Of a stretch of DNA of 64,000 nt, positions 1 to 38,332 are shown piece by piece. The stretch lies in assembly GCF_030811555.1 (NCBI RefSeq), contig NZ_JAUSQZ010000001.1, positions 7,499,241 through 7,563,240 of the forward strand. Direction: 5' to 3'. A program made the translations under genes and the position numbers. This DNA is from Kineosporia succinea. GTDB taxonomy: Bacteria > Actinomycetota > Actinomycetes > Actinomycetales > Kineosporiaceae. The notes below the pieces were generated by a model. That model had not been told where the DNA came from. It saw only the letters and a program-made list of their open reading frames with translations, and made no database searches. Numbering within the stretch: position 1 is the stretch's first letter; every line of letters starts with the position of its first letter.

Positions 1-3000
1 AGCGCCCCCGAGCGGTCGGCCAGCGTCATCGTGAAAGAGCCCTCGCCCGTGGGCATCAGGTGCACCCGCAGCGCGGTGGCTCCGCTCGCGTAGACGCGCA
101 GCCCCTGCCAGCGCACCGGTTCCCTCCCTCCCAGCGCGGCGTCCAGCAGCGCCGGATGCAGCACCCGGCCCCGCACGTCCAGATCGGGCAGGGCCACCTC
201 GCGCAGCTCGTCCTCGCCGAGGCGCCAGGTGCCCTCGCCCCTGGCCTCGGCCCCGGGCGGTGGCCACGGCGCCAGGCCGGATTCCGGCGCCGGGCCGACG
301 GTGGTGTGCAGCGAGCCGTGGGCCACCCGGATCCACGCCTCGTCCGAGCCGTCGGGACGGGCGTGCACCGTGAGAGCGTCTGCGGTGACGATCATCTGGA
401 TCTCCAGGGCACCCCGGTCCGGACGCGGCAGAGGAGTTTCGAGGGTCAGTTCCCGCACCCCCGAGAACCCGGTCTCGTCGGCGGCCGTCAGCGCCAGTTC
501 CGCCAGCACCGCGGGCAGCGGATCGGTGCGAGCCACCCGCCCGGTGAGCACGACCCCGCCCGCATCGGCCAGCGGCACGGCCGGGCCCACCACCGGATGG
601 CCGGTCACCGCCCGCTGCGAGGAGACCCAGAACCGGCGCCGCTGGAACGGGTACGACGGCAGGTCGACCGGCCCGGTCCCGGTCCCGGCGAAGAACGCCT
701 TCCAGTCGACGGAGACCCCGCGGGTGTGCAGATCACCGAGAGCCGCTGCGACGGCGCGGGTCTCGGGCTCATCGGCGTGCAGCAGAGGCACCGCACCGGT
801 CCCGATCAGACCGGAGAGCACCGTTCCCGGCCCGACCTCCACGAACGTGGCCGCCCCCAGCCCGGTCAGGCAGAGGGACGCGTCGGCGAACCTCACGGCC
901 TCCCGCACCTGCCGCACCCAGTAGTCGGGCGAGGTGAGATCGGCCGTGGCGTCACCGGTGAGCGTCGACACGATCGGGATCCGCGGTGCGTGGTACCGCA
1001 GCGTGCGGGCGACCGTGCGGAACTCGTCGAGCATCGGGTCCATCAGCGGCGAGTGGAAGGCATGGCTCACCCGCAGCCGCCGGATCCGGAACCCCCGGGC
1101 CGCGGCGTCCTCCCCCACCGCCAGCACGGCCTCCTCGCCGCCGGACAGCACCACCGACGACGCCGCGTTCACCGCCGCCAGCACCACGCCGTCACACATC
1201 AGCGGCTCCACGACCGTCGCGGGAGCGGCCACCGCCAGCATCGCCCCGCCCGGCGGCAGCGCCTGCATCAGCCGGGCGCGGGCTCCGACCAGCCGGGCCG
1301 CGTCGGGCAGGGACAGCACCCCGGCGACGTGCGCGGCGGCCAGCTCGCCGATCGAATGGCCCGCCAGCAGATCGGGTTTCACACCCCAGTGCTCCAGCAA
1401 CCGGAACAGCGCCACCTCGAGGGCGAACAGCGCGGGCTGGGCCTGCCCGGTGTTCTCGAGACCGTCCGGGACGTCACCGAGCACCAGGTCACGCACGGGC
1501 ACGTCCAGCTCGGCGCAGACCGCGTCGAACGCGTCGGCGAACGCGGGGTACCCGGCGTGCAGTTCACGGCCCATGCCCGGACGCTGACTGCCCTGCCCCG
1601 GGAAGACGAACGCCGTGCGCCCGGCGACCGGTTCGCCCGGAACGGCCCGGCGCAGAAGTCCGGCGAGTTCGGTGTTCCCGCGGCCGGCGACCGCGATCCG
1701 CAACGGCAGGTGCGCACGGCCGGTGGCGAGGGTGCGGGCGACACCGGCCAGATCGGCACCGGTTTCGATCACCTCGGCGATGCGCGCGGCCTGAGCGGTC
1801 AGCGCGGCCGGGGTGCGGGCCGAGACCAGCAGCGCGATCGCGGGCAGCCCGTGATCGTCCGGAGCGACCTCCGGCGGGGCCTGCTCGAGGATCACGTGCG
1901 CGTTGGTACCGCTGACCCCGAACGCCGAGACCGCCGCCCGGCGGGGACGGTCCGTGCGCGGCCAGGGACGCAGATCCCTCACCAGTTCCACCGACCCGCG
2001 CGACCAGTTCACGAACGGGGTCGGCTCGTCGACGTGCAGGGTCGGCGGGACCTCGGCGTGACGCAGCGCCTGGATCATCTTGATCACACCCCCGACGCCC
2101 GCCGCCGCCACGCTGTGCCCGACGTTCGACTTGAACGAGCCCAGCAGCAGCGGGTGCTCACGGTTCTGGCCGTAGGCCGCCAGCAGGGCCTGCGCCTCGA
2201 TCGGGTCACCGAGCCGGGTGCCCGTGCCGTGCGCCTCGACGACGTCCACGTCACCGGGCCGGAGCCGGGCCGAGGCCAGCGCCGCGCGGATCACCCGCTC
2301 CTGCGCCGGGCCGCTCGGCGCGGTCAGGCCGTTGGAGGCCCCGTCCTGATTGACCGCCGACCCGCGCAGCACCGCCAGCACCCGGTGCCCGAGGCGCTGC
2401 GCGTCCGAGAGCCGTTCGAGCAGAACCAGTCCCACCCCCTCCGACCAGCCGGTGCCGTCGGCCGCGGCCGCGAACGACCTGCAGCGGCCGTCGGGACTCA
2501 GGCCGCGCTGCCGGGAGAAGTCCACGAACCCGCCCGGGTGCCCGGAGACCGTGCACCCTCCGGCCAGCGCCAGCGACGACTCCCCCGAGCGCACCGACCG
2601 GGCCGCCAGGTGCATCGACACCAGCGACGACGAGCACGCGGTGTCAACCGTGACGGCCGGGCCGCCGAAGCCGAAGAAGTACGAAAGACGACCCGAGGCG
2701 ACACTTCCCAGCTTGCTCGTCATCAGGTATCCCTCGAGCTCCGCCGGCGCGTCGAGACCCAGGTAGCTCTGCTCGACCACCCCGGCGAACACCCCGACGT
2801 CCGTGCCCCGCAGTCCCGCCGGGTCGATCCCGGCATGCTCGAACGTCTCCCAGGCGGTCTCCAGCAGCAGCCGCTGCTGCGGGTCCATCGCCAGGGCCTC
2901 CCGCGGGGAGATCCCGAAGAACTCGGCGTCGAACCGGGTGGCGTCGCCCACGAAACCGCCGTGCCGGGTGTACGAACGGCCCGGCCGGTCCGGATCCGGG

Positions 3001-3272
3001 TCGTAGAGCGTCTCGACGTCCCAGCCCCGGTCGTCCGGCCAGGCGGTGATGCCGTCGCGGCCCTCGGCGACCAGGTCCCACAGGTCGTCGGCCGAGCCGA
3101 TCCCGCCCGGGTAGCGGCAGGCCATGCCGACGACCGCGACCGGTTCCGTCTCCCCCGCCTCCAGCTCGGCCAGCCGCTGCCGGGTCCTCCTCAGATCGGC
3201 CGTCACCCACCTCAGGTAGTCGGCCAGCTTCTTCTGCTCCGGACCGTCCCCGTGCGTCGTCTCGGCGGACAT
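1..3272 (-). CDS. Modular type I PKS, KS-AT-DH(degenerate)..., truncated by the window edge
   Basis: Third PKS protein of the assembly line; about 1090 residues are visible and the frame is still open at base 1. An N-terminal helical docking segment (about residues 10-40, [10 protein letters not shown]) precedes a KS with DTACSSS, EAHGTGT and NVGHS motifs, then a normal KS-AT linker, then an AT with GQGSQ, GHSIGE and the malonyl-type HAFHS. The DH that follows is damaged. The segment that should hold HxxxGxxxxP is missing (the chain runs from LTGRV straight to AVLAELAL) and no YGP motif follows, although HPALLD remains, so dehydration is unlikely. The ATG at 3270-3272 follows a purine-rich GGAAGG and lies 21 bp after the previous stop, so this is the third gene of one operon. 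Any KR, ACP or release domain (thioester reductase or thioesterase) lies outside the window. I number this module 5. Confidence 0.93.
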
Positions 3273-3293: not shown

Positions 3294-6200
3294 CTAGCTC
3301 GCCGCGCGACCCAGTTCGTTGTCGATGAAGTCGAACACCTCGGCCAGCGAAGCCGTCTCGATGCCGTCCGTCGATGCGGGCACCGCCCCGGAGAACCGGG
3401 TCAGCAACGCCTGCAGCTGGAGCACCAGCGCTCCCTGCCGCGCCGGGTCCTGTGCGAGCCCGGTGACCAGCTCCTCGAGGCGGTCCAGCTCGGTCACCGC
3501 GGACGGCACCGGCTCCCCCACCACCTCGTCGAGCAGGTACCCGGCCAGCTCCCCGGGCGTCGGACGGTCGAAAACAATGGTTGCGGGCAGACTCTCGCCC
3601 ACCTCGGCCGACAGCCGGTTGCGCAGTTCGAGCGCGGTCAGCGAGTCCAGTCCCAGGTCGCGGAACGGCCGGTCGGCGCTCACTTCGGTGCCCCCCAGAA
3701 TGGTGGACGCCTCGGTCACCACGAGATCGACCAGGAACGAGCGCTTCTGGTCACCGGAGAGGTCGCGGAGCCGCTCGGCCAGGCTCGGCGGCTCGGCCAC
3801 GGCCGTCCGGGACCGGCCCGGCAGCAGGCCGCGCAGCAGCGGCAGCAGCCGGTCGGCGGTCCGGAGCACCGAGGCGCTGAACGGAACCGCGACGACCGCC
3901 GGGACGTCGCACGCCCGGGCCGCGTCGAAAAGCCGCAGCGCCTGAGCCGGTTCGACCGGCCGAACCCCCTCCGGCAGGTGGAGCCGCACGTCGTGCCCGC
4001 TCTCCTCGAGGTTCCACGGCCCCCAGGCGAGAGAGACCGCCCGCCACCCCCGGGCCCGGCGACGTGAGGCCACCGCATCGAGAAGCGCGTTCGCCGCCGC
4101 GTCGCCGGACTGCGCCAGTGCCCCGAAACTGCCGGCGGCCGAGGAGAAGAGCACGAAGAACTCCGCGTCCGGCACCAGGTCGTCGAGATGCCCGGCGGCC
4201 CGGGCCACGTCGAGCACGGCCTCGAACCGGTCTTCGGTCATGGTGGCGAGCAACCCGTGGTCACGCACCCCGGCCGCGTGCACGACCCCGGTCACCGGCT
4301 CCCCGTCGAGCAGGACGGCCAGGGCCTGCCGGTCGCGCACGTCGGCGGCGGCCAGGACGACCTCGGCGCCGAGCTCGTTCAGCTCGGCGCGCAGCTGCGC
4401 CGCCCCCGGCGCCGCCGATCCGCTCCGGCTCACCAGCAGCAGACGCCTGACCCCGTGGGCGCCGGCCAGATGGCGGGCGATCCGCGAGCCGAGAGCGCCG
4501 GTGCCCCCCGTGATCAGCACCGTGCCGTCGATCCGGTGGTGCTGCGCCGGGACCACGGCCGGGGGGATCCGGGTGAGACGCGGCACCAGCGGACGGGTCC
4601 CGCTCACCCGGACCTCGGGCTCCCCCGCCGCCAGGGCCGTGTCGAGAGCCGCCGGGTCGTCGGTGTCCAGGTGCACCAGGACGATCCGGCCCGGCGCCTC
4701 GGCCTGGGCCGCGCGCACCAGACCACACCCGGCCGCCGTCCCCGGCTCCTCGTCCAGAGCCACGACCAGCAGGGGGGTTCCGGAACGCCGCTCGTCGGAC
4801 AGCCACTCCCGAACCGTCCGCAGCGTGAGGGACGCATCCGTGACCACCGTGACCACCGCGTCCGCCACCGCCCCGGAGGTCAGCACCGGCAGCCCCTCGA
4901 ACCGCCCCGCCGGATCGCCCAGGAGAGCCCAGGTCCGCGGCCCCGGCACCGAAACCTCCGGCCCCGGGGACCAGGTCACCGTGAGCAGGCCGGTGGGCCC
5001 GGTCTCGGCGAGCGGCCCGAAGGTGATCGACCCGACCGTGAGCACGGGCCGGCCGGCCCCGTCGTGCAGGTGCAGGGCGAGCGAGCCGTCGTCCGTGTCG
5101 CTCCAGGTGGGGGCGGCCCGGTCGGTGCCCTCCCGGTGCAGGTGGATGTCGTGCCAGGCGATCGGCACGTCCTCGGCGGGCGCGACGTCCAGAGCCGCCT
5201 CCAGGAGGCGCGGATCGAGCCGGAAGCCACCACCACGCGCGGGCGCCGGCCGGTGCCCGGTCGCGGGTGCCAGGGTGCCCTGGGCGTGACGGGTCCACGG
5301 GTCGGACGTCCCCTCCGGCTGGGAGTGCACGGAGACCGTCGTGCCCCCGTCGCCGGCCGGGATCGCGGTGCGCACCTGAAGGCGCAGGGCCCCGGCGGTT
5401 CCGAGGGACAGCGGCGCCTCGACGAGCAGCTCCCGCACCCGCTCGTGCGGGCCGGTCGCGGCCAGCACCAGTTCGACCAGGGTGGCCACCGGCGCGTCCT
5501 CCGTGAGCCGGCCGGTGAGCACGCTGCCGGTGTCCGTGGTCAGTTCGGCCGCGAGCAGCGGGTGCCCGGTCGGGGTGAGGCCCAGTCCGGCGGGGTCGTG
5601 CCCGGGCACGGTCGAGGGCTCCAGCCAGAACCGGCGCAGCTGAAATCCGTTGTTCCTCAGTCCGTCGAGAGCTTCGCCCACCGTCTCCGGCTCCGGTCGC
5701 CGGGCCCGCAGCAGCGGCACGGCCCCCTCGACGAGCGCGCTGAGCACCCCGTCCGGGCCGAGTTCCAGGTAACGGGTGACACCCTGCCCCTCCAGGAACC
5801 TCACCCCGTCGTGGAACCGCACGGCGCCGCGGATCTGCTCGGCCCAGTAGGCCGGGGTTCGCATCCGGTGACCCGCCGGGCGGCCGGTCAGGTTCGAGAT
5901 CACCGGGACGGACGCGGGGGCGAACGTGAGATCCGCTATGGCGGCGGTGAACCCGGCGAGGATCCCGTCCATGTGTGCCGAGTGGAAGGCGTGCGAGACG
6001 GTCAGCCGCTTGACCCGTCGCCCCCGGTCCCGCCAGAGCCTCGCCACCTCCTCCGCAGCGTCCTCGTCCCCCGAGATCACCACGGAGCGAGGCCCGTTGA
6101 CGCCGGCGACCGTCACCCCGAGACCCTCCAGGGTGGGGACGACCTCGTCCTCGGACGCCTCCAGCGCGACCATCGCACCGCCCTCGCGCGCCGACTGCAT

Positions 6201-9200
6201 GAACCGGCCGCGGGCGATCACCAGCGCGCAGGCGTCGGGCAGGTCGAGCACGCCGGCGCAGTGGGCCGCGGTGACCTCGCCGATCGAGTGGCCCAGCAGG
6301 TGGTCCGGTTTCACCCCGGACGCCTCGACGAGCCGGAACAGGGCCGTACCGAGGGCGAACAGGGCGGCCTGGGTGAAGGCCGTCTGGTCGAGCAGGGCCG
6401 AGTCGGCGGAGCCCTCGGCCGCGAACATCACGGCCTTCAGCGGACGCGACAGCTGCGGATCGAGGTGGGCGCAGACCGCGTCCAGGGCCTCGGCGAAAAC
6501 CGGCTCACGCTCGTACAGCTCGCGGCCCATGCCCAGACGCTGGCTGCCCTGCCCGGTGAACAGGAACCCGGTGCGCACACCCCGGGTGGGCTCGGGCACG
6601 TCGGTCGCGTACTGCTCGAGCACGACGTGGGCGTTGGTGCCGCTGATCCCGAACGACGACACCCCGGCCCGCCGCGGACGCCCCGCGGTGATCTCCCACG
6701 GCCGGGCGTCCTTCAGGAGCTCGACCCGGCCGGCCGTCCAGTCGACCTGCGACGAGGGCTCGTCCACGTGCAGGGTGGCCGGGAGCACACCGTGACGCAT
6801 GGCCTCGAGCATCTTGATGATGCCGCCGACCCCCGCAGCGGCCTGGGTGTGCCCCAGGTTGGACTTGAGAGACCCCAGCCACAGCGGCTTCTCACGATCC
6901 TGACCGTAAGTGGCCAGCAGGGCCTGCGCCTCGATCGGGTCACCGAGCCGGGTGCCCGTGCCGTGGGCCTCCACGACGTCGACGTCGGCCGCGTCCAGCC
7001 CGGCGTTCGCGAGCGCCTGCCGGATCACGCGTTCCTGGGAGGGCCCGTTGGGTGCGGTCAGGCCGTTCGAGGCCCCGTCCTGGTTCACCGCCGACCCGCG
7101 CAGGACCCCGAGGATGCGACGGCCGTTGCGCACCGCGTCCGAAAGCCGTTCCACCACGAGCAGACCCACACCCTCCGACCAGCCCGTGCCATTTGCCGAC
7201 TCGGCGAACGAACGGCACCGCCCGTCGGCCGCCAGACCGCGCTGGCGCGAGAACTCCACGAACGCGGCCGGGGTCGACATCACGGCCACCCCGCCGGCCA
7301 GCGCCAGGTCGCACTCCCCCTGCCGCAGCGCGTTCGCGGCCAGGTGCAGCGCGACCAGCGACGAGGAACAGGCCGTGTCCACCGAGACCGCCGGGCCCTC
7401 GAAACCGAAGGTGTACGAGAGGCGTCCCGAGGCAACGCTTCCCGCACTCCCTCCGGCGAGGTAGCCCTCGAGTTCCTCGGGGACGGGTCGGGTGAGAGTG
7501 CCGTAGTCGTGGTACATCACCCCGGTGTAGACACCGCTGCGCGAACCCCGTAGTGACGCGGGCACGATTCCCGCGTGATCCATCGCCTCCCACGCGGTCA
7601 TGAGCAGCAGACGTTGTTGCGGGTCGGTCGCCAGCGCCTCGCGGGCCGACATGCCGAAGAAGTCCGGGTCGAAAAGATCGGCGTCGTGCAGGAACCCGCC
7701 TTCGCGGGTGTACGAGGTGCCGGGCCGTCCGGGGTCCGGGTCGTAGAGGGCGTCCAGGTCCCAGCCGCGGTTGACCGGGAAGCCGGAGATCGCGTCGCGG
7801 CCGTCGGCGACGAGGTGCCACAGCTCTTCGGGCGACGAGACCCCGCCCGGGTAGCGGCAGGCCATGCCGACGATGGCGACGGGTTCGTCGGTGACCGTGC
7901 GGATGGTACTGGCCGTGCTCGTTCTGGTGCCGGTCGTCAGCTCGGTGAGGCGCTGGGCGAGGGCGTCGGGGGCCGGGTAGTCGAAGACCAGGGTGCTGGG
8001 GAGCCGCAGGCCGGTGGCCGAGCCGAGGCGGTTGCGGAGCTCCACGGCGGTCAGCGAGTCGAGGCCCAGTTCCTGCAGCGGACGGTCGGCGGGGATCGAG
8101 GCCGCACCGGTGTGACCGAGCACGGCCGCCGCTGCCGTGCGCACGAGGCCGAGGAGATCGGTCGCCGGCTCGATCTTCCGGCCGCCGCTCCCGCGCGGAC
8201 GCGAGGGGACGAGAGCACGCATGACCTCGGGGGCGTCCGGGCCCGCGGCGCGCAGGTCGAGCCGGGTCACGGCCACCACCGGATCGTCGCCGGTGACCGC
8301 GCGGTCGAACAGGTCCATGGCCTCGTCGGGGTGCAGCGGCACGATGCCGGTGCGGGCGAGGCGGACGCGGTCGGTGCCCGTGAGCTCGGCGCCCATGCTG
8401 TGGGTGGTGTCGTCCGCCCACAGGCCCCAGGCGAGCGAGAGGGCGGGCAGTCCCTGGGCGCGGCGGTGGGTGACCAGGGCGTCGAGGAACGTGTTGCCCG
8501 CGGCGTAGGCGGCCTGCCCGGCGTTGCCGAACAGCCCGGCCAGCGACGAGTAGACGACGAACGCGCTCAGGTCGTGATGCCGGGTGAGCTCGTGCAGGTT
8601 CCAGGCCGCGTCCACCTTCGCCCGCAGCACCGCCCGCAACCGGCCGGGGTCGAGCGCGGCGAACGTGGCGTCGTCGAGTACGCCCGCGGCGTGCACCACG
8701 GCGGTGAGGTCGGTGCCGGCCAGGGCCTCGGCGAGCGCCCTCCGGTCGGCGACGTCGCAGGCGGCGAACCGGACCTGGGCCCCGAGCGCCGTCAGTTCGG
8801 CCGCGTGTTCGGCCGCGCCCGGGGCCTGCGCCCCGCGGCGGCTGATCAGCAGCAGACGGCGGACGCCGTGGTGCACCACCAGGTGCCGCGTCACCACCGG
8901 TGCGAGCGCACCGCCGGCCCCGGTGACGAGGACGGTTCCGGTGCCCCAGCCGGCCTGCGTCACCCCGTCCGGCGTCGGTTCCGGGCGGGTCGTGCCCGTC
9001 GGCGCGGTGATGCGGGCGAGCCGGGGGGCGCTGAGCGCACCGTCCCGCACCGCCACCTGGGGTTCCCCGCACGCGAGGGCCCGGATCAGCGCGGGGCCCG
9101 GGTGGTCGAGGTCGACGAGCCCGAGGCGGCCGGGGTTCTCGGTCTGCGCCGACCGCACCAGGCCCCAGACGCCGCTGGGGGAGAGATCGGCGAGACGGTC

Positions 9201-11765: not shown

Positions 11766-11793
11766 GGGATCACTTCCTGGTCGGGACAATTCG

Positions 11794-25168: not shown

Positions 25169-25214
25169 CGGTTCACGACCGATGAGCGGGCGGTGAGAGC
25201 CCTGCGGTTATGTT
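25169..25214 (+). promoter_or_regulatory. Candidate SARP-dependent promoter of the tailoring operon
   Basis: Three heptamers at 11-bp spacing: CGGTTCA (25169-25175, weak), CGATGAG (25180-25186) and CGGTGAG (25191-25197). They are followed after 11 bp by TATGTT (25209-25214), a plausible -10. This matches the usual SARP promoter layout, where the last repeat lies close to the -10. The FAD monooxygenase ATG is 71 bp downstream of the -10. Positions and motifs are seen directly; the function is inferred. Confidence 0.5.
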
Positions 25215-25284
25215 CGGACGGCGCCGAGAACCGGCGCGGCGTCACGGAATCCGCGACGGAACCGCCGAGTGCTGGGAGACTCAC

Positions 25285-26608: not shown

Positions 26609-27472
26609 ATGACCCTTCAGCGGATCTCCCTCGGTGGTCTCACCTTCGACGTCGACGTCGAGGGTGAGGCCGGCGGGCCGGCCGTGCTTCTCCTGCACGG
26701 CTTCCCGCACAGCCGTCACTCCTGGGCCGGTGTCGCGCCGATCCTGCACGAGGCCGGGCTGCGCACCGTCGCACCCGACCAGCGCGGGTACTCCGACGGC
26801 GCCCGGCCCGGCCGGGTCGCCGACTACGCCCTGCCGCTCCTGGCCGGTGACGCGCTCGGCCTGCTCGACGCGCTCGGCATCGGGTCCGCGCACGTCGTCG
26901 GGCACGACTGGGGGGCGGCGGTGGCCTGGTACCTGGGAGCGCGCCACCCCCGGCGGGTGCGCTCGCTCGTCGCGCTGGCGATCCCGCACCTGGACGCCTA
27001 CCAGCACGCCTTCCAGGTCGACGAGGAGCAGCGGGCCGGCTCGAAGTACGTCGAGATGCTCATGGCCCCGGACTCGGCCCGGGACTTCCTGGCCGACGAC
27101 GCGGCCGGGCTCCGGGCCTGGTTCGCCCAGGCCGGTGAGGGCGTCCTGACACCCGCCCAGGTCGACGGGTACGTCCGGAAGCACGCGCAGCCGGGCGTTC
27201 TCGACGCGGCGCTCAACTGGTACCGGGCGAACAACCTGGTCGGTGAGCCGTTCGGGTTCGGCCCGGTGACCGTGCCGACGACGTTCGTCTGGAGCCCCTC
27301 CGACACCGCGGTCAGCAAGCTGTCGGTCGAGGAGACGCCCCAGCACGTGACGGGCCCCTACCGGCTCGTCCCCCTGCCGGAGACCTCCCACTGGCAGCCC
27401 CAGCAGGCTCCGGAGGAGGTCGCGCGGGAGATCGTGCGACTTGTCGGTACGCAGAAGGGGGAGGCACGATGA
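26609..27472 (+). CDS. Alpha/beta-hydrolase, epoxide hydrolase / haloalkane dehalogenase family
   Basis: 287 aa. The oxyanion motif HGFP (about 30-33), nucleophile-elbow Asp in GHDWG (about 93-97) and a C-terminal His in TSHW fit an Asp-nucleophile epoxide hydrolase. It sits directly behind the epoxidase gene (7-bp gap) and overlaps the aminotransferase gene by 4 bp (ATGA), so the three are translationally coupled. The likely job is opening an epoxide made by the upstream enzyme or managing its reactivity; the coelimycin cluster has a comparable epoxide-hydrolase-like gene beside its epoxidase. Substrate choice is not visible from the sequence. Confidence 0.85.
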   Translation: MTLQRISLGGLTFDVDVEGEAGGPAVLLLHGFPHSRHSWAGVAPILHEAGLRTVAPDQRGYSDGARPGRVADYALPLLAGDALGLLDALGIGSAHVVGHDWGAAVAWYLGARHPRRVRSLVALAIPHLDAYQHAFQVDEEQRAGSKYVEMLMAPDSARDFLADDAAGLRAWFAQAGEGVLTPAQVDGYVRKHAQPGVLDAALNWYRANNLVGEPFGFGPVTVPTTFVWSPSDTAVSKLSVEETPQHVTGPYRLVPLPETSHWQPQQAPEEVAREIVRLVGTQKGEAR

Positions 27473-30579: not shown

Positions 30580-31107
30580 ATGTCCACCGCGCAGCAGATC
30601 GACTACCTCGGCGAGACCTACGGCCGGGCCCGGGCCCAGCTCGGCGGCACCCTGCCGGCCGGGCTCGACGGCTTCATGGAGCGCTGGTTCGCCGCCGTCA
30701 ACGCGCACGACATCGACGCCCAGCTGGCCCTGTGCACCGACGACGTGTATGTCGAAGACCCGGCCATGCAGGGTCGTTTCACCCGGGGCCAGGCCGAGTT
30801 CCGGCGTTTCGCCGAGATCACCTACACCGCGTTCCCGGACATGCGCTTCACCGAGATCGGGGCGCCCTACCTCGCGCTGGACGGCGACAGCCTGGGGGTG
30901 CGCTGGCGCGGAACGGCCACGATGCTCGGCGACATCTCGGGCTGGCCGCCGGAGAGCCCGGGCCCGACGGTCGCGGCCACCGGCCGGGGCTTCGACCTCG
31001 AGGGGTACGACATCTACCGGTTCACGGGCGGGCGGATCTCCACCTGGCTGATCCGCTACGACAACCTGGAGATGACCGGCCAGCTGGGGCTCCGCCCACC
31101 GCAGTGA
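30580..31107 (+). CDS. SnoaL-like / NTF2-fold protein
   Basis: 175 aa. The region from about residue 28 (FMERWFAAVNAHDIDAQLALCTDD) to the C-terminus matches the NTF2-like SnoaL pattern: a helix pair followed by a curved sheet with EDP, TAFPDMRF and DIYRFTGGRI elements. Family members act as polyketide cyclases, isomerases or hydrolases and need no cofactor. The start at 30580 has a perfect GGAGGAG at 30569-30575. It is the last gene of the first tailoring operon, followed by a terminator. A role in cyclisation or isomerisation of the alkaloid ring is plausible but not shown. Confidence 0.8.
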   Translation: MSTAQQIDYLGETYGRARAQLGGTLPAGLDGFMERWFAAVNAHDIDAQLALCTDDVYVEDPAMQGRFTRGQAEFRRFAEITYTAFPDMRFTEIGAPYLALDGDSLGVRWRGTATMLGDISGWPPESPGPTVAATGRGFDLEGYDIYRFTGGRISTWLIRYDNLEMTGQLGLRPPQ

Positions 31108-31162: not shown

Positions 31163-31588
31163 TCAGCCCCGCATCGCCTTGTGCAGCAACGCGACCAGGG
31201 TCTCGCGCTCGTCGTCGGTGAGGTTCGCGGCGGCCGACCGGGGGAACCCGAAGGAGTCCTCGAAGGCCCCGTAGAGGTCGTCGCCGCCCGGCGTGCGCAC
31301 GATCTGCCGCGAGCGCCGGTCTTCGGGGTGGGGCTCGCGGCGCACCAGGTCGCGGGCCTCGAGGCGCACCACGATCTGGGTGATGTTGGAGGCGTCGCAC
31401 CGCAGTTCCTCGGCGAGTTCGCCCATGCTGCGGCGGGTCTCGACCCGCCCGAGCACGCAGGCGTGGGCGGTGCTGAGGTCGTGCTCGCCGGCCGCGGCCT
31501 CCCACGCCTGGTTGTACGCGTCGACGAACTCGAACATCGCCTGCTCGAGGTCGGTCGCGGCGTTCGCGGGTACGGAGGGCACTGCCAT
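31163..31588 (-). CDS. MarR-family transcriptional regulator
   Basis: 141 aa from the ATG at 31586-31588. The winged-helix core reads SMGELAEELRCDASNITQIVVRLEARDLVRREPHPEDRRSR (about 52-92), with the MarR wing motif DRRSR. The longer upstream frame is rejected because it would run through the operator palindromes. It is divergent from the old yellow enzyme gene with two copies of CTTGAGCCGCTCAAG between them, so it very likely represses that gene and itself. MarR proteins usually release DNA on binding a phenolic or other small ligand; the ligand here is unknown. Confidence 0.88.
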   Translation of the reverse strand: MAVPSVPANAATDLEQAMFEFVDAYNQAWEAAAGEHDLSTAHACVLGRVETRRSMGELAEELRCDASNITQIVVRLEARDLVRREPHPEDRRSRQIVRTPGGDDLYGAFEDSFGFPRSAAANLTDDERETLVALLHKAMRG

Positions 31589-31610: not shown

Positions 31611-31652
31611 TTTGAGCCGCTCAAGATTTCCGAAGTGCTTGAGCCGCTCAAG
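31611..31652. promoter_or_regulatory. Paired MarR operator, two copies 27 bp apart
   Basis: The palindrome CTTGAGCCGCTCAAG occurs at 31638-31652. A near copy with a T at the first base, TTTGAGCCGCTCAAG, is at 31611-31625. Each has 5-6 bp arms around CCG. Both lie in the 139-bp divergent space between marR and the old yellow enzyme gene. The first copy is just upstream of the MarR start and could block that promoter. Assignment to the neighbouring MarR is inferred. Confidence 0.75.
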
Positions 31653-31727
31653 GAAGCGTGCCACCATATCCATGAGTCAATCAAGTAGTTACCGTTCAGT
31701 TACATATCTCTCAGCGAGGAGACCGTC

Positions 31728-32810
31728 GTGAGCGAGCTGTTCGAACCGGTGATCGCAGGCCGCCTTGCCCTGCCGTCCCGCCTGGTGATGGCCCCGATGA
31801 CGCGCAACCGGGCCACTCCCGACGGCGTGGTCACCCCGATGACCGCCGAGTACTACGCCCAGCGGGCGAGCGCCGGCCTGATCGTGAGCGAGAGCATCCA
31901 GCCCAGCGTCATGGGCCAGGGCTACATCCTGACCCCCGGGCTGCACAGCCCGGTCCAGGTCGCGGCGTGGCGCACGGTCACCGACGCCGTTCACGACAAG
32001 GGCGGGCGCATCGTCGCCCAGCTCACGCACTGCGGGCGCATCGGGCATCCTTCGCTCTACCCGAACGGCGAGCTGCCCATCGCCCCCTCGGCGGTGGTCT
32101 CCGGCGAGCAGATGATCAGCTTCGAGGGCCCGGTCGACCACCCTCAGCCGCGCGAGATGACCTCCGAAGACATCAACGCCACGATCGAGGAGTACACCAC
32201 CGCCGCCCGTAATGCCCTGGAGGCCGGGTTCGACGGCATCGAGGTGCACGCCGGCAACGGCTTCCTGCTGCACCAGTTCCTGGCCGACAACACCAACCTG
32301 CGCACCGACGAGTACGGCGGCTCCGTCGCCAACCGCATCCGCTTCGTCGTCGAGGTGGTGCGCGCGGTCGCCGCGGTGGCCGGCGCCGACCGCGTCGGTA
32401 TCCGGGTCGCCGCGGGCAGCCCGTACAACAGCATCGTCGAGGCCGACCCCGCGCCGGTCTACACGGCCCTGTTCGAAGAGCTGGCCGCCATCGGCATCGC
32501 CTACGTGCACGTCATCGAGATGGGCACCCGCGAGCTGACCCGTCAGCTGCGCGCCGCCTGGCCGGGCACACTCATCCTCAACCCGCACGAGACCATGGAG
32601 GTCTTCCCGGCCACCCCCGAGGTGGCGCACCAGGCGCTCGACGCCGGTGTCGCCGACGCGGTGTCGCTGGGCGCGGCCTGGCTGGCCAACCCCGACCTCG
32701 ACGAGCGCATCAAGAACGGCGGCCCGTACAACACGCCCGACCCGGCCACCTTCTACGGCGGCACGCACGTGGGCTACACCGACTACCCCACCCTGCAGTA
32801 CGCCCGCTGA
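31728..32810 (+). CDS. Old yellow enzyme (FMN-dependent ene-reductase family)
   Basis: 360 aa, GTG start at 31728 with GAGGAG at 31715-31720. TIM-barrel OYE features: APMTRNRA (22-29), QLTHCGR (98-104), the substrate-anchor pair His174/Asn177 in HAGNGF, and the RTDEYGGS stretch (about 192-199). The proton-donor Tyr that follows the His/Asn pair in classical OYEs (HxxNGY) is Phe179 here, so enone reduction may be slow or use another donor. Family role: NADPH-driven reduction of activated C=C bonds. In this cluster it could saturate part of the polyene or the cyclic imine/enone. Controlled by the divergent MarR. Confidence 0.9.
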   Translation: MSELFEPVIAGRLALPSRLVMAPMTRNRATPDGVVTPMTAEYYAQRASAGLIVSESIQPSVMGQGYILTPGLHSPVQVAAWRTVTDAVHDKGGRIVAQLTHCGRIGHPSLYPNGELPIAPSAVVSGEQMISFEGPVDHPQPREMTSEDINATIEEYTTAARNALEAGFDGIEVHAGNGFLLHQFLADNTNLRTDEYGGSVANRIRFVVEVVRAVAAVAGADRVGIRVAAGSPYNSIVEADPAPVYTALFEELAAIGIAYVHVIEMGTRELTRQLRAAWPGTLILNPHETMEVFPATPEVAHQALDAGVADAVSLGAAWLANPDLDERIKNGGPYNTPDPATFYGGTHVGYTDYPTLQYAR

Positions 32811-32931: not shown

Positions 32932-34458
32932 TTGCCCCGAGACACCGTCCTTGCGAACGACTCCCGCTACCGGGGGCTGATCAGCGGCGCGAACACCCGC
33001 TGGGTCGGGTCCCCGGACTTCGTGCGTCTGGTCGCCTCCGCCGAAGAGGTCGAGGAGGCCGTGCAGGACGCGGTCGACCGGGGCCTGAGATTCACCGTGC
33101 GCAGCGGCGGCCACTGCGACGAGAACTTCACCACCACCGGTGACATCCAGGTCGTCATCAACCTGGCCGCCCTCGACTCGGTGCACTACGACGAAGAGCG
33201 CCGGGCCTTCGCCGTCGAACCCGGGGCCTCGCTCGGCCGGGTCTACGAGACGCTCTACCGCGGCTGGGGAGTCACCCTCCCGGGGGGAACCTGCCCCACG
33301 GTCGGGGCCGGTGGTCACATCGTCGGCGGCGGCTACGGCGCCCTCTCACGGCTGCACGGTCTCACCGTCGACCACCTCGAGGCGGTCGAGGTGGTGGTGG
33401 TCGACGAGAACGGCCGGTGCCGCCGGGTCGTGGCCGGGCGTGATCCCGACGACCCCCACCACGACCTGTGGTGGGCGCACACCGGCGCCGGGGGCGGCAC
33501 CTTCGGGGTCGTCACCAAGTACTGGCTGCGCACTCCCGGCACCGCCTCCGCGCCCCCGCACCAGCAGCTGCCCGCGCCGCCGCAGCAGGTCATCGTTTCC
33601 GACGTCGCCTGGTCGTGGGACGACCTGACCGAGGCCACGTTCACCGCTCTGGTGCGCAATTTCAGCGCCTGGCACGAGGCCAACTCGGCGCCCGGCTCCC
33701 CCGGCGCCGGTCTCTACAGCCAGCTCAAGACCCAGCACCGCAGCGCCGGGTCGTTCCGCATGAGCACCCAGGTCGACGCCGGGCTGCCCGGGGCGAACGA
33801 GAAGCTCGACGCGTTCCTGGCGGCGGTCAACGAGGGCACCGGCCTGACCTACACGGTCAACGACCGCAGCGTCCTGCCGTGGTTCTACACCGTGCGCGAG
33901 TGGTTCGGGTTCGTCGAGCCGTCCCTGCCCCGCTGGAAGGCGAAGTCCTCGTACCTGCGCCGAGCCGTGCCGGACGACCAGCTCGCCGCCATGTACCGCC
34001 AGCTCACCCGCGACGACTACGACAACCCGTTCTCGATGATCGCCCTGGTCTCCTACGGCGGCCGCATCAACGCGGTCGGGGCGAGCGAGACCGCGGTGGC
34101 CCAGCGCGACTCGGTGGTGAAGCTGCTCTTCGTCACCCTCTGGACCGACCCGACGCACGACGAGCGGCACGACCGCTGGATCCGGGAGTGCTACGCCGAC
34201 GTGTACGCCTCCTCCGGAGGGGTCCCGGCGCCCAACGACGTCACCGACGGCTGCTTCATCAACTACGCCGACGCCGACGTGGCCGACCCGGCCCTCAATC
34301 GATCCGGCACCGCCTGGCACGAGCTGTATTTCAAGCACAACTACGCCCGCCTGCAAGAGGTCAAGAAGCGCTGGGACCCCCGCGGTGAGTTCCGCCACGC
34401 GCTGTCCGTGCGCCCAGCACTTGCCCCTGCCCCCACCCCGGAGGACCGCCCGACATGA
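32932..34458 (+). CDS. BBE-like FAD-linked oxidase with bicovalent flavin motifs
   Basis: 508 aa from a TTG at 32932, chosen because AGGAGG (32922-32927) lies at ideal distance and the protein then aligns from its N-terminus with the paralogue at 29046. It retains both flavin attachment residues: His61 in RSGGH and Cys121 in GGTCPTVGAGGH, 60 residues apart, the pattern of bicovalent berberine-bridge-type oxidases. The two paralogues share long blocks such as DLWWAHTG.GGGTFG.VTK.WLR.PG. Likely role: two-electron oxidation (dehydrogenation) of an alcohol or amine in the pathway. Its stop overlaps the next start (ATGA), so it is coupled to the NmrA-like gene. A 121-bp gap with no strong terminator separates it from the OYE gene. 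Confidence 0.87.
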   Translation: MPRDTVLANDSRYRGLISGANTRWVGSPDFVRLVASAEEVEEAVQDAVDRGLRFTVRSGGHCDENFTTTGDIQVVINLAALDSVHYDEERRAFAVEPGASLGRVYETLYRGWGVTLPGGTCPTVGAGGHIVGGGYGALSRLHGLTVDHLEAVEVVVVDENGRCRRVVAGRDPDDPHHDLWWAHTGAGGGTFGVVTKYWLRTPGTASAPPHQQLPAPPQQVIVSDVAWSWDDLTEATFTALVRNFSAWHEANSAPGSPGAGLYSQLKTQHRSAGSFRMSTQVDAGLPGANEKLDAFLAAVNEGTGLTYTVNDRSVLPWFYTVREWFGFVEPSLPRWKAKSSYLRRAVPDDQLAAMYRQLTRDDYDNPFSMIALVSYGGRINAVGASETAVAQRDSVVKLLFVTLWTDPTHDERHDRWIRECYADVYASSGGVPAPNDVTDGCFINYADADVADPALNRSGTAWHELYFKHNYARLQEVKKRWDPRGEFRHALSVRPALAPAPTPEDRPT

Positions 34459-35288
34459 CCAGAACCGTGTTCGTCACCGGAGCCCGGGGCAAGACCGGGC
34501 GCGAGGTGATGGCCCAGCTCGCCGGCCGCCCCGGCGTCACCGTGCGCGGTGGCACGTCCCGCGAGAAGCACCAGAACCACCCCACCACCGTCGCTTTCGA
34601 CTGGCGCGACGAGTCGACCTGGCCGAAGGCCCTCGACGGGGCCGACGCCGTCTACATCGGGCGCCCCGACGTCGAGGACTCCCCCGAGCTGATCACCCGG
34701 CTGCTGGCCACGGCGCCGGGGGTGCACGTCGTGCTCGTCTCCGAGCAGGGCGCCGAGAAGGTCGGTCCCGAGGGCTGGGTCAGCCGGGTCGAGTCCGCGG
34801 TCACCACCGGCGCCGACAGCTGGACCGTGCTGCGCCCGTCCTGGTTCCAGCAGGTCTTCACCGATCCGCGCTACTTCCTCGAGGCGATCCGCCGCGAGTG
34901 CACGATCAGCCTGCCCACCGAGGGCGCGCCCATCGCCTGGGTCGACACCCGCGACATCGCCGCCGTCGCGGTCGAGGCGCTCCTCGACCCGGCGGGTCAC
35001 CACGGCCGCGCCCACACCGTCACCGGCCCGCAGGCCGTCACCACCGCGCAGATCGCGGCCGCCGTCTCCGCCGCCACCGGCACCACGGTCACCGCCGTCA
35101 CCCCGCCGCTGGCCGAGTCGCTGGCCGGGGCCCCGGCCTGGCTGGCCGACGTGGTGGGCGGCATGTTCGGGCGGGTGCACGACGGAACCTTCGCCCAGGT
35201 CAGCGATTGCGTCGAGACCGTCACGGGGCAGCCGCCGCGTTCGGTCGGGGCGTTCGTCGACGAGCACGCCGCCCAGTGGCGGGCCTGA
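34455..35288 (+). CDS. NmrA-like NAD(P)-binding protein (atypical SDR)
   Basis: 277 aa. The N-terminal VFVTGARGKTGREV (5-18) is the GxxGxxG nucleotide loop of NmrA/HSCARG-type atypical short-chain dehydrogenases. There is no YxxxK catalytic pair in the usual place, as in redox-sensing or reductase members such as QorB-like quinone reductases. It overlaps the previous gene by 4 bp and lies 25 bp before an MDR oxidoreductase, so these three genes are probably co-expressed. It may be an NADPH-dependent reductase or a regulatory NAD(P)H sensor; the sequence does not decide. Confidence 0.82.
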   Translation: MTRTVFVTGARGKTGREVMAQLAGRPGVTVRGGTSREKHQNHPTTVAFDWRDESTWPKALDGADAVYIGRPDVEDSPELITRLLATAPGVHVVLVSEQGAEKVGPEGWVSRVESAVTTGADSWTVLRPSWFQQVFTDPRYFLEAIRRECTISLPTEGAPIAWVDTRDIAAVAVEALLDPAGHHGRAHTVTGPQAVTTAQIAAAVSAATGTTVTAVTPPLAESLAGAPAWLADVVGGMFGRVHDGTFAQVSDCVETVTGQPPRSVGAFVDEHAAQWRA

Positions 35289-35313: not shown

Positions 35314-36270
35314 ATGAGAGCGCTCGTTCACCATCAGACCGGCAAGCACCGGCTGCGCCTGCACACGGCGCCCGACCCGCAGCCCACGGCCTCGCAGGCG
35401 CTCGTGCGGGTCAGCGCGTTCTCGTTCAACTTCGGGGAGATCGCCTTCCGCACACCCGACCTGCCCGACGGCACGATCCCCGGGTGGGACGCGGCGGGCG
35501 TGGTGGTCACGCCCGCCGCCGACGGTTCCGGTCCGGCCGCGGGGACGCGGGTGGTCACGTTCGGATGGTCCGGGGCCTGGGCGCAGAGCCGGGCGGTCGA
35601 CACCTCGGAGCTCGCGGTCGTGCCGGAGTCGGTGGATCTGGGCGCCACGGCGGCGCTTCCGGTCGCGGGTATCACCGCCCTGCAGGCGGTGCGGCGGCTC
35701 GGGTCGATCCTGGGGCGGCGGGTGCTGGTCACCGGGGCCTCCGGCGGGGTCGGCCGGTTCGCGGTGCAGCTGGCGAGCCTGGCCGGGGCCGAGGTCGTGG
35801 CCTCCGTCGGGTCGCCCGCACGCGGGCAGGGCCTGGCCGAGCTCGGCGCGGCCGAGATCGTCATCGGGCCGCAGGCTCTCACGGGCCGGGTGCACGGTGT
35901 GGTCGACAACGTCGGGGGCCGGCAGCTGGCCGACGCCTACCAGCGCCTGGCCTCGGGCGGCATCGTCTCGGCGGTGGGCATGGCCTCGAAGGAGCCGACC
36001 ACGATCGACTTCGAGGAGGCCCGCATCGGGCACGACCGGGGCCGCATCGAGACGTTCAACATCTCGCTGCCGCTCGGCGAAGACCTGCAGTACCTGGTGC
36101 GTCTGGCCGAGCAGGGCCGGCTGCGGATCCCGGTGGGCTGGCGCGGCGGCTGGGATTCCTACGAAGACGCCGTCACCCAGCTGCTCGACCGCAAGGTGCA
36201 GGGCAAGGCCGTGCTCGACATCCCCGAGAACCTCGACACCCCCGAGAACCTCGACATCCCCGGGCACTGA
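35314..36270 (+). CDS. Zinc-independent medium-chain dehydrogenase (quinone oxidoreductase-like MDR)
   Basis: 318 aa. It has a GroES-like N-terminal domain (about 1-110) and a nucleotide-binding domain with VLVTGASGGVGRFAVQLA (about 138-155). No catalytic zinc Cys/His set is visible, which fits the quinone oxidoreductase/enoyl reductase branch. GGAAGG precedes the ATG at 35314. The C-terminus ends in a duplicated PENLDT/PENLDI hexapeptide produced by an 18-bp tandem repeat. Last gene of the plus-strand block, followed by a strong terminator. It could act as a stand-alone enoyl reductase on pathway intermediates. Confidence 0.85.
   Translation: MRALVHHQTGKHRLRLHTAPDPQPTASQALVRVSAFSFNFGEIAFRTPDLPDGTIPGWDAAGVVVTPAADGSGPAAGTRVVTFGWSGAWAQSRAVDTSELAVVPESVDLGATAALPVAGITALQAVRRLGSILGRRVLVTGASGGVGRFAVQLASLAGAEVVASVGSPARGQGLAELGAAEIVIGPQALTGRVHGVVDNVGGRQLADAYQRLASGGIVSAVGMASKEPTTIDFEEARIGHDRGRIETFNISLPLGEDLQYLVRLAEQGRLRIPVGWRGGWDSYEDAVTQLLDRKVQGKAVLDIPENLDTPENLDIPGH
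36222..36256. repeat. 18-bp tandem duplication at the MDR gene 3' end
   Basis: CCCCGAGAACCTCGACA occurs at 36222-36238 and 36240-36256, unit 18 bp. It duplicates six residues at the extreme C-terminus in frame, so it is probably neutral. Confidence 0.85.
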
Positions 36271-36276: not shown

Positions 36277-36309
36277 GCGCTGAGGGCGGGATCGTCCCGC
36301 CCTCAGCGC
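36277..36309. terminator. Strong bidirectional terminator between the MDR gene and the SARP gene
   Basis: GCGCTGAGGGCGGGA (36277-36291) pairs perfectly over 15 bp with TCCCGCCCTCAGCGC (36295-36309), with a TCG loop. It lies between the convergent MDR stop (36270) and the SARP stop (36314). Confidence 0.9.
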
Positions 36310-36313
36310 TGTT

Positions 36314-38332
36314 TCAGGCTGTCAGCTTCAGCAGGCGCCGAAGATCGCTACGGCGGCTGCTGATCTCGGCCTCGTCGGCCTCCTCGGCCGAGGGCAGGAG
36401 CATCGCCACCTCGCTCCAGGAGCGGTAGCGCACGAACTGCAGCAGCTGGTCGAGCGCGGCGTCCGAGAGCGGGTCGACGGTGATCGTGCTGGCGTGCGGA
36501 TTGCCCCCGCTCCACGCGGGCCGCCGTTCGAGCAGTTCCGGCCGGCCCGCCCCGACCAGCACGAGCGGCATGGATCCCGAGACCCCGCACAGCTTCTCGA
36601 CGAAGTCGAGCGCGGCGTCGGGCAGCCGGTGCAGGTCGTCGATCAGTATGACCAGCGGGTGCTCACCGGGCAGGGACGCGAGCAGCGTGCTCCAGTGGGC
36701 CAGCATCTGCGCCGGCGAGCCGGGCTCCTCCAGCACGGCGCTCAGCCGCGACGCCGCCTCCGTGTCCCACGGCGTGCGGTGCCCGTCGATACCCGCGGAG
36801 GGCTGCCAGCTGACCAGATGGGCGGCGGTGTGCGGGCGGTTGGCGATGCGGCGCCCGAACTCGGTCAGCAGCCTCGACTTGCCGCTGCCCGGCTCCCCCA
36901 GAACCGTGACCAGGTGCGGCCGTCGCCGGTGCCCGGCGCGTTCCAGGATGCCGGTCAGCATGCCCAGTTCGCACTCGCGGTCGATCAGGGGCAGGAAGTG
37001 CCCCTGCCTCAGCTCACCGGCCACTCCCTTGACCACGAAACTCGCCGGGTCGCCGGGCTGGTGGGCGTACACGAAGGCCGGACCGGCGGCCCGGCGGGTG
37101 TCCGGGCAGACCACGATCTCCCCGTCGGGTGCGGCGCCCAGCAGATCCTGGCAGTGATCGACCGGCCGGCCGCGCACGGTGAGCAGGCCGTCGCCGTCGC
37201 GACCGCGCCGCAGCAGGGCCTCACCGGTCGCCACCACGATCTGCGTCTGCAGCCCCGGCCCGTCCGGAACCCCCAGCTGCTCGCGGATCTCGACGGCCGC
37301 CCGGATCGCCCGGGCCGCGTGGTCACCGTCGGCCGCCTCGAAGACCGCGGTGCACATCGAGCCGAACGTCAGCACCGAGACCCCCTCGTACGAGGGGACC
37401 GTCTTGCGCACCAGGGTGCAGGCCTGGTCGAGGATCTCGTCGATGTGCTCCAGCGGGGGGCCGGCGACGGCCCGGCAGCGCACGAGCAGGAAACTCACCG
37501 GCTGCTTGCCCTCCCGGGGCGTGGCCGGCTCCGGTGTGAGAACCACCGGGGCGGCAGGGGGCGGGGTCTGACTCAGCGAGGGATCGTGATTCAGGATCGC
37601 CTGCTGCAGCAACTGCACCTCCCGGCCCGGATCGAGCCCCCGCCGGGCCACCAGGGCGTTGCGCATGCGGGTGTAGACGTCGAGGGCCTCGGCGTGCCGG
37701 CCGCTGCGGTACAGCGCGAGCATCAGCTGCGCACAGGCCCGTTCGCGCAGCGGCTCGCTCTCGACCATGTTCTCGAGCTCGCGCAGCACCTCGTACTGAC
37801 GACCGCAGAGCATGGCCGCCTCGAAGTAGTCTTCCTGGGCGTCGAGCCGGGCGTTCTCCACCCGCGTCAGCTCGGGCCAGCTGATGCCGGTCTCCACCAT
37901 GTCGGCCAGCAGCGGACCCCGCCAGATGCCCAGGGCCTCGCGCAACGTGGTGAGCGCCGCGTCGGTGCGGCCCTGGGCCAGCTGGGCCCGGCCCTCGTCG
38001 GCCAGCCGCAGGAACAGGTGCAGATCAACGTCTTCCGGGTCGACCACCAGCATGTACCCCGGTGGACGGGTGATGAGCACGGCCTCGCCCCGGGCCCGGT
38101 CGTCGTGGGCCAGCGCCCCGCGCAGGCCCCAGACCGCGTTCTGCAGGATGTTGCGCGCCGAGGCCGGGGCCTCGTCGTCGGGCCACAGCGCCCCGATCAG
38201 CCGGCTGGTCGCGACCACCTGATTGGCGCACAGCAGCAGCATGCTCAGCGTGGCCCGTTGCTTGGCGCCCCCCAGCGCGACGGGAGACTCGCCGTCCCAG
38301 GCCTCGAGATTTCCCAGCATCCGAAATCGCAT
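36314..38332 (-). CDS. SARP-family cluster activator with nucleotide-cyclase-like and AAA ATPase domains
   Basis: 672 aa. Domains: OmpR-type winged helix (about 1-95), bacterial transcriptional activation domain BTAD (about 100-250), a Pro-rich linker, a nucleotide-cyclase-like domain (about 278-430) and an AAA/STAND ATPase core with Walker A GEPGSGKS (479-486) and Walker B LVILIDD (560-566). It ends soon after the ATPase core without the TPR tail of AfsR-type large SARPs. The ATG at 38332 is preferred over the adjacent GTG at 38335 because GGGGGGAG lies 7 bp upstream of the ATG. SARPs activate biosynthetic clusters by binding heptamer repeats. Such repeats occur between the PKS and tailoring operons, so this is the likely pathway activator. 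A GC stem-loop lies in its leader. Confidence 0.88.
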   Translation of the reverse strand: MRFRMLGNLEAWDGESPVALGGAKQRATLSMLLLCANQVVATSRLIGALWPDDEAPASARNILQNAVWGLRGALAHDDRARGEAVLITRPPGYMLVVDPEDVDLHLFLRLADEGRAQLAQGRTDAALTTLREALGIWRGPLLADMVETGISWPELTRVENARLDAQEDYFEAAMLCGRQYEVLRELENMVESEPLRERACAQLMLALYRSGRHAEALDVYTRMRNALVARRGLDPGREVQLLQQAILNHDPSLSQTPPPAAPVVLTPEPATPREGKQPVSFLLVRCRAVAGPPLEHIDEILDQACTLVRKTVPSYEGVSVLTFGSMCTAVFEAADGDHAARAIRAAVEIREQLGVPDGPGLQTQIVVATGEALLRRGRDGDGLLTVRGRPVDHCQDLLGAAPDGEIVVCPDTRRAAGPAFVYAHQPGDPASFVVKGVAGELRQGHFLPLIDRECELGMLTGILERAGHRRRPHLVTVLGEPGSGKSRLLTEFGRRIANRPHTAAHLVSWQPSAGIDGHRTPWDTEAASRLSAVLEEPGSPAQMLAHWSTLLASLPGEHPLVILIDDLHRLPDAALDFVEKLCGVSGSMPLVLVGAGRPELLERRPAWSGGNPHASTITVDPLSDAALDQLLQFVRYRSWSEVAMLLPSAEEADEAEISSRRSDLRRLLKLTA

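Follow-up and report, generated by a model that had tools for sequence, protein, structure and literature searches.

Within a 64,000-nucleotide stretch of Kineosporia succinea DNA (the window; positions 7499241-7563240 of a genome that forms a single contig of 8,065,021 bases) lies a modular polyketide synthase (PKS) gene cluster that an initial annotation had taken for a coelimycin-like alkaloid cluster with an altered assembly line and extra redox genes. On balance, we consider it to be a natural cluster in which a backbone programme of the argimycin type is joined to tailoring of the coelimycin type, the whole probably making a polyketide alkaloid. The coelimycin-type label thus held for the tailoring genes but not for the redox programme of the PKS, which is argimycin-like, the ketoreductase (KR) of module 4 being dead and the dehydratases (DH) of modules 4 and 5 degraded. 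Coelimycin-type comparisons were made with the cluster of Streptomyces sp. NBC_00249, judged to be cpk-type from its gene content and order rather than against the S. coelicolor reference, while argimycin P (arp) was likened from published descriptions rather than from arp sequences.

The cluster reaches 3.5 kb left of window base 1, taking in the rest of pksC and a type II thioesterase gene. All the genes named in the initial annotation were found where it had placed them, namely the FAD epoxidase, the epoxide-hydrolase-type hydrolase, the class III aminotransferase, two proteins resembling berberine bridge enzyme (BBE), the SnoaL, MarR, old yellow enzyme (OYE), NmrA and MDR proteins and the SARP regulator. 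PKS domain order was read with phmmer using seeds from the window, the DHs of pksB and pksC being placed by alignment. The features, in window coordinates unless otherwise indicated, are as follows (KS, ketosynthase; AT, acyltransferase; ACP, acyl carrier protein; TR, thioester reductase).

Genome 7495782-7496510, left of the window: type II thioesterase, a discrete gene of 242 aa, after pksC.
1..3272, minus strand: pksC (whole gene at genome 7496510-7502512, 2000 aa), KS-AT-(DH remnant)-KR-ACP-TR, module 5 and reductive release.
3294..11789, minus strand: pksB, 2831 aa; module 3, KS-DH-KR-ACP without AT; module 4, KS-AT-KR-ACP with a dead KR.
10323..10400, minus strand: junction of the AT deletion in module 3, from alignment to modules 2-4.
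11794..24852, minus strand: pksA, 4352 aa; KSQ-AT-ACP loading module and modules 1 and 2, each KS-AT-DH-KR-ACP.
25210..26601 (start perhaps 25285), plus strand: D, CpkD-type FAD epoxidase, 67% identical to the CpkD-position protein of NBC_00249.
26609..27472, plus strand: E, CpkE-type alpha/beta epoxide hydrolase, 69% identical to the NBC_00249 protein.
27469..29001, plus strand: G, class III aminotransferase of CpkG type (PF00202), 60% identical to the NBC_00249 protein.
29046..30545, plus strand: BBE1, BBE-like, without the two FAD-tether residues and without a Tat-like signal.
30580..31107, plus strand: SnoaL-like protein (PF12680), NTF2/ketosteroid-isomerase fold in a structure model.
31163..31588, minus strand: MarR-type regulator, its start moved from the open reading frame (ORF) start at 31684; the start region is conserved in relatives.
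31611..31685: palindromes of TTGA-N5-TCAA type, three in number, within the 139-bp MarR/OYE gap; likely operators for MarR.
31728..32810, plus strand: OYE of the NemA class, with Phe179 for the usual Tyr.
32932..34458, plus strand: BBE2, ScF-type BBE-like oxidase with FAD tethers kept and no Tat-like signal; TTG start at 32932 after AGGAGG.
34455..35288, plus strand: NmrA-like protein, 35% identical to the NmrA-like protein of NBC_00249.
35314..36270, plus strand: MDR-type oxidoreductase (PF00107/PF08240), 69-83% identical to those of five clade relatives.
36314..38335, minus strand: SARP regulator (BTAD + AAA), its N-terminal part 59% identical to the CpkO-position protein of NBC_00249.

As proposed in the initial annotation, the assembly line starts from a KSQ loading domain, recognized in pksA by its AQSSS motif, and all five of its ATs carry the malonyl motifs GHS[I/V]G and HAFH. 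Reductive release, which was to be sought left of base 1, was found there, the C-terminus of pksC being a TR domain (PF07993, 237.7 bits; TIGR01746, 305.6 bits for a cut-off of 213.35). A thioesterase or further modules in that region had been named as grounds for abandoning the prediction; neither a chain-terminal thioesterase domain nor a further extension module was found beyond pksC, the only thioesterase there being the discrete type II enzyme. The Tyr motif is kept in KR1, KR2, KR3 and KR5, whereas in KR4 Asp2563 replaces Tyr and the Lys is lost. The corresponding KR is also altered in Myceligenerans (Tyr to Phe, Lys to Ser) and in MAG41, a Corynebacteriales metagenome-assembled genome (Tyr to His, Lys to Ala), module 4 of Nocardia niigatensis and N. 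puris gave no KR match, and KR4 is intact in two coelimycin-type loci of Streptomyces (NBC_00249 and H27-H5). DH4 and DH5 have no catalytic His at the aligned site, and the catalytic His region of DH5 is missing. One match to the DH His pattern, at 2064 of pksB, falls in a linker outside the aligned site. In the argimycin programme, the double bonds come from modules 1-3, KR4 malfunctions and DH4 and DH5 are inactive (PMC5300972); the coelimycin and argimycin PKSs are said to differ in KR4 and DH5 only (PMC9733639). Since a dead KR4 and degraded DH4 and DH5 reproduce the published argimycin programme, with modules 1-3 reducing and dehydrating (module 3 lacking an AT), the predicted chain is argimycin-like; the active KR4 and DH5 that characterize the coelimycin type are absent.

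Counterparts of both CpkD and CpkE are present, as judged from identities and from a tree of D, E and G together. All nine solved sequences that match D are polyether epoxidases, either Lsd18/LasC or MonCI, and the best solved matches of E are epoxide hydrolases. The TR on the last PKS and a class III transaminase of the CpkG/ArpN kind, the CpkG-type assignment of G having been upheld, are those of a polyketide alkaloid cluster. The model of the SnoaL-like protein, built from six sequences, has an NTF2/ketosteroid-isomerase fold (mean pLDDT 80), and IdmH, ketosteroid isomerase and SalBIII were among the best matches in a fold search; sequence matches to solved proteins were weak (best E 0.00085). 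These fold matches do not fix the reaction, as they leave a predicted cyclase, isomerase or epoxide opener undistinguished. MarR, OYE, MDR and SnoaL proteins have no counterparts in the coelimycin-type cluster compared, in agreement with their having been called additions.

Relatives were collected by scanning contigs with an alignment of three CpkD-type proteins, which returned 16 loci. Three of them, from Myceligenerans pegani, MAG41 and Actinoplanes regularis, share the gene order D-E-G-BBE1-SnoaL, MarR, OYE-BBE2-NmrA-MDR at 67-88% identity; N. puris and N. niigatensis have D-E-G-BBE1-SnoaL and MarR-OYE-MDR without BBE2 or NmrA matches. In the other 11 loci, no OYE, MarR or SnoaL match was found within stretches of 14-21 kb each. 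A tree of D, E and G, built from the window and ten of those 16 loci, groups the window with these five relatives at 100/100, leaving Saccharothrix and then Streptomyces outside. Since the hosts of this clade belong to different families, horizontal spread is likely. The aminotransferase was found at E <1e-80 in 10 of 394 genomes sampled from the class, K. succinea included (the three best candidates per genome being scored), in none of five other genomes examined from the genus (at 1e-60) and in one other of 13 examined from the family, at 38% identity.

The same survey yielded several observations on other gene combinations. Four Streptomyces loci (L060, L061, L062 and L066) contain an NmrA-like gene besides counterparts of CpkD and CpkE, with no aminotransferase or PKS match in the stretch examined, and their epoxidase/hydrolase pair may serve another pathway. 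In Streptomyces CB00316 and S. cyaneofuscatus (L063 and L064), a CpkD-type gene comes immediately after the TR with which a polyketide alkaloid PKS ends, a PKS whose pksB has a single module (G051); an NmrA-like gene is present as well, making this another mix in which a C10-type line meets an epoxidase. A stitched Streptomyces locus (G360:C1 6691227-6694571) has a pksB consisting of a bare KS-AT-ACP, and thus a ketone at the same place without any KR.

The AT-less module reported in the initial annotation was borne out: pksB has two KS, two KR and two ACP domains and a single AT. Alignment reveals a clean deletion in module 3, in which the end of the KS joins the post-AT linker motif directly, the AT, the KS-AT linker domain and the docking remnant all being gone; module 4 keeps its AT and has lost most of its KS-AT linker and part of its post-AT linker. 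The rest of module 3 retains the catalytic motifs examined (Cys/His/His in KS3, His motif in DH3, Tyr in KR3, Ser in ACP3). Compared to Myceligenerans, dN/dS was 0.16 for KS3, 0.47 for DH3, 0.46 for KR3 and 0.29 for ACP3, within the ranges of the 20 domains compared (KS 0.14-0.24, DH 0.44-0.61, KR 0.26-0.49, ACP 0.13-0.34; all <1), a comparison that omitted KS2, KS4, AT0, AT1, ACP0 and ACP1. By this sequence measure, module 3 shows no relaxed constraint and changes no faster than like domains elsewhere.

The line is unlike a trans-AT PKS, in that only one of its five extension modules is without an AT. Of the eight AT-family matches in the genome, this PKS accounts for five; two others belong to long ORFs at other places, and one, perhaps FabD, lies at 4480543-4481361 near a ketosynthase match. 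An engineered AT-null module 6 of the erythromycin synthase DEBS was rescued by the malonyl-CoA:ACP transacylase of S. coelicolor (PMC6164871), so that loading of module 3 in trans is possible in principle. Both cases involve one module without AT function in a cis-AT line; the DEBS module was engineered, whereas the deletion here is natural and complete, and its supply in trans is our proposal. In the accessible parts of the open-licence literature we found no natural AT-less module in a cis-AT line, and nothing on a coelimycin CpkB without an AT domain. An origin of module 3 by a move from pksA was considered; plain orthology followed by AT deletion would fit the domain identities equally, provided that the broken contigs of Myceligenerans follow the coelimycin order. 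Among loci with a readable module 3, the AT alone is missing only in the window: N. niigatensis has an AT in both modules of pksB, and the five extension-type units of Myceligenerans, spread over broken contigs, all include an AT. Three of the Myceligenerans contigs (C67, C68 and C66) start inside near-identical AT domains, as if these had recently been made alike, breaking the assembly.

A tentative alternative is that module 3 receives no malonyl group and is passed over, the chain on ACP2 going unextended, the outcome being a C10 diene alkaloid comparable in size to abikoviromycin. The complete loss of the AT and of the docking remnant is in keeping with such skipping, as are the pksB of MAG41, which within the same clade has one module fewer, and the single-module pksB of Streptomyces loci with the same aminotransferase (G404, G360, G289a, G313 and G051); had the module been skipped, however, some loss would be expected in KS3, DH3, KR3 and ACP3, whose motifs are kept and which change no faster than their counterparts. 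The MAG41 pksB, on contig C111, reads KS-AT-KR-ACP with a dead KR, and may reflect an assembly error.

The flavin enzymes differ from those of coelimycin in their cofactor attachment and predicted location. In all six clade loci, BBE1 is without the FAD-tethering His (GGH to GAC/GAG) and Cys (GGTCP to GxGPP) of bicovalent BBEs, whereas both residues are kept in the four clade BBE2 proteins, in three of three CpkH-type proteins of Streptomyces and in the Saccharothrix protein. Two Tyr-bearing regions of TamL and AknOx, which have a catalytic role, are matched by Tyr at the aligned places in BBE1. A review mentions singular BBE-like oxidases whose flavin is not covalently bound (PMC11375781), so that such proteins are rare, not unheard of. 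A Tat-like (twin-arginine translocation) motif is present in the BBE proteins of three Streptomyces and of Saccharothrix, and in the ScF protein of NBC_00249, and absent from clade BBE1 (0/6) and BBE2 (0/4) in searches that reached at most 60 residues upstream of the match. For coelimycin, tailoring is reported to take place outside the cell, with CpkF as the exporter (PMC11632069); here, E and G adjoin with no CpkF-type exporter between them, and the coelimycin complement of two exported, FAD-tethered BBEs with CpkF is therefore not found. CpkH was taken as the counterpart of BBE1 because of its identity (54%, vs 50% for ScF) and gene place. BBE2, reckoned an addition in the initial annotation, turned out to be the ScF counterpart (65.5% identical to the ScF-position protein of NBC_00249, grouped with it at 100/100), and the NmrA-like protein likewise loses its status as an addition, NBC_00249 also having such a gene. 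In the unrooted BBE tree three groups meet, namely BBE1 with Saccharothrix, the Streptomyces CpkH proteins, and ScF with BBE2. Module 4 is readable in five of the six clade loci, that of Actinoplanes not being tied to this cluster, and its KR is dead or absent in all five, BBE1 being untethered in all six.

It is very improbable that the product is coelimycin or a bis-epoxide sharing its skeleton: counterparts of CpkD, CpkE, CpkG and ScF are present, but KR4 is dead, DH5 degraded, BBE1 untethered and CpkF missing.

The OYE, overall a strong match to the NemA class, keeps His174 and Asn177 and has Phe179 where solved relatives have Tyr, the residue that acts as proton donor beside the His/Asn pair. 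Phe occupies this position in four of four core-clade loci, and Tyr in both Nocardia. We found nothing in the open-licence literature linking coelimycin with an old yellow enzyme. The three palindromes of the MarR/OYE gap are the only matches in the window to the 15-base pattern with at most one mismatch (3 found for 0.34 expected; 1 of 100 shuffles reached 3). Nine of the 94 loci searched contain the exact sequence TTGANNNNNTCAA; all nine are copies of the six clade MarR/OYE gaps, and the remaining 85 do not have it. This conservation supports predicted control of OYE by MarR in all six clade loci and gives no sign of such control at the PKS promoters.

MarR-controlled OYEs act in electrophile defence. 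One may hence ask whether the MarR-OYE-BBE2-NmrA-MDR block serves self-protection, an intracellular epoxide or enone being sensed by MarR and destroyed by OYE and MDR, a possibility that we rate as appreciable although not as our first choice. The clade is without Tat-like signals and CpkF and has OYE, MDR and MarR, Streptomyces loci showing the reverse; the palindrome is confined to MarR/OYE gaps; and Saccharothrix, which keeps a Tat-like signal, has no OYE match in the stretch examined. Phe for Tyr in the OYE of all four core-clade loci would nonetheless be odd for a general enone reductase, and BBE2, an ScF counterpart, sits in the same gene row.

Returning to the cluster as a hybrid of argimycin-type backbone and coelimycin-type tailoring, we read its domain content, its lost residues and the conservation of its gene set and palindrome directly from the sequence, and infer the chemical steps, the C12 chain length, loading in trans and the roles of OYE, MDR, NmrA, SnoaL, BBE1 and BBE2. 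The KSQ-started, all-malonyl PKS would set double bonds with modules 1-3, module 3 most likely receiving its malonyl in trans from AT4, from one of the remaining ATs of this PKS or from FabD. Module 4 would then leave a ketone, owing to its dead KR, and module 5 a hydroxyl, its KR5 being intact and DH5 degraded. TR would release the chain as an aldehyde and the aminotransferase convert it to an amine, closure of which on the module-4 ketone would yield a 2-polyenyl piperideine. The CpkD-type enzyme would epoxidize the side chain, and the CpkE-type hydrolase open the epoxide with water or an internal nucleophile, perhaps aided by the NTF2-fold protein. OYE and MDR, under MarR control, could act as reductases on an unsaturated imine or carbonyl, or could protect the cell from electrophiles of this kind, and BBE2 could oxidize the side chain or ring. 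Judged from its genes, the product is most likely an oxygenated alkaloid of the piperideine or pyridine type, C12 in length or, should module 3 be skipped, C10, and it may well be new. The triene-bearing cyclic imine first proposed remains the likely core, giving way to a C10 diene should the AT-less module be passed over; the initial annotation had made no mention of a KR4 without catalytic residues, the degraded DH4 and DH5, the untethered BBE1, the loss of Tat-like signals and CpkF or the trimmed AT4 linkers.

The nearest experimental parallel is that of hybrid argimycin pathways carrying cpkD or cpkDE, in which an argimycin-type chain likewise meets CpkD/CpkE; in the argimycin producer, CpkD was proposed to epoxidize C9-C10 and CpkE to hydrolyze the epoxide, and the products include quinolizidines, a pyranopyridine and a pyridine diol (PMC9733639). 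Those hybrids were made by hand and the present cluster is natural; their bicycles required ArpDHI, which the pyridine diol did not (PMC9733639). No Pfam domain of an ArpDHI-like acyl-CoA dehydrogenase or of an ArpDHII-like imine reductase was found in the scanned cluster proteins. A compound of the diol/pyridine type is thus the safer prediction here, and a bicycle the bolder one.

Several points weigh against this overall picture. The cluster proteins have no ArpDHI counterpart among their Pfam matches, and nigrifactin is apparently a side product of the argimycin pathway (PMC5820336). There is no discrete AT in the cluster, and in MAG41 the same tailoring genes accompany a single-module pksB and hence a C10-type line. 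The dead KR4 and KR3 do not differ in dN/dS (0.454 vs 0.455), making dN/dS a weak measure and no proof of module 3 function, and a recent AT loss would give the same picture. Finally, Saccharothrix, on a contig that stops before the last module, has a dead-KR module (Tyr-to-Phe KR) yet a tethered, Tat-bearing BBE; the idea that KR4 inactivity leaves no need for the alcohol oxidase CpkH, and that this accounts for the loss of the BBE1 tethers, is weakened.

A decaying cluster with little or no product is improbable. Loss of an AT, a dead KR and an untethered BBE within one locus might be read as successive steps of decay, but the ORFs of the PKS and of the tailoring enzymes run uninterrupted from end to end, the KR4 and BBE1 losses are common to relatives, the tailoring proteins are highly similar to those of the three same-order relatives, and dN/dS is below 1 in 20 of 20 PKS domains. 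More speculatively, the clade could be a horizontally spread, largely non-Streptomyces branch in which an argimycin chain meets an intracellular coelimycin epoxide machinery to give an epoxide-opened bicyclic alkaloid, AT4 with its trimmed linkers serving two ACPs and a non-covalent BBE and donor-less OYE performing unfamiliar steps; we hold this extended version to be doubtful.

Compared to known systems, the cluster shares with the coelimycin type a KSQ hexaketide layout in three PKS genes, TR, CpkG, CpkD and CpkE, as well as two BBE-like proteins, an NmrA-like protein, a SARP and a type II thioesterase; it differs in the missing AT3, dead KR4, degraded DH5, untethered BBE1 and absent Tat-like signals and CpkF, and in the added MarR, OYE, MDR and SnoaL. 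With argimycin P (PMC5300972, PMC5820336) it shares the PKS programme, TR, transaminase, SARP, type II thioesterase and SnoaL-like proteins, but has CpkD/CpkE-type epoxide genes, BBEs, OYE and MDR and is missing AT3, whereas ArpDHI, the imine reductase ArpDHII, ArpO and two SnoaL proteins are argimycin's own. A search of the open-licence literature found nothing on a Kineosporia polyketide alkaloid.

Genes on either side were not assigned to the cluster. Left of the type II thioesterase lie a 270-aa ORF without a Pfam match, an AsnC regulator, an MFS protein and a peptide deformylase, and also on the left (L001:5087-11423) a DUF1800/DUF1501 pair and genes for a chemoreceptor and for a periplasmic binding protein of the sugar type. 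TauE, DUF3152, TPR regulator-like, hydantoinase and transport genes follow the SARP gene; window positions 45455-52746 hold catabolic genes, for DUF1989, hydantoinase A and B and a large metallopeptidase-like protein that looks secreted.

Read in this manner, the K. succinea locus is a natural cluster combining the backbone and tailoring of two characterized pathways, as was built by hand in PMC9733639. It would also provide a natural test of whether an extension module works with its AT wholly deleted, which bears on the engineering of cis-AT lines, and it brings to light a conserved group of BBE-fold proteins that lack FAD tethers, along with a simple prediction of MarR operators.

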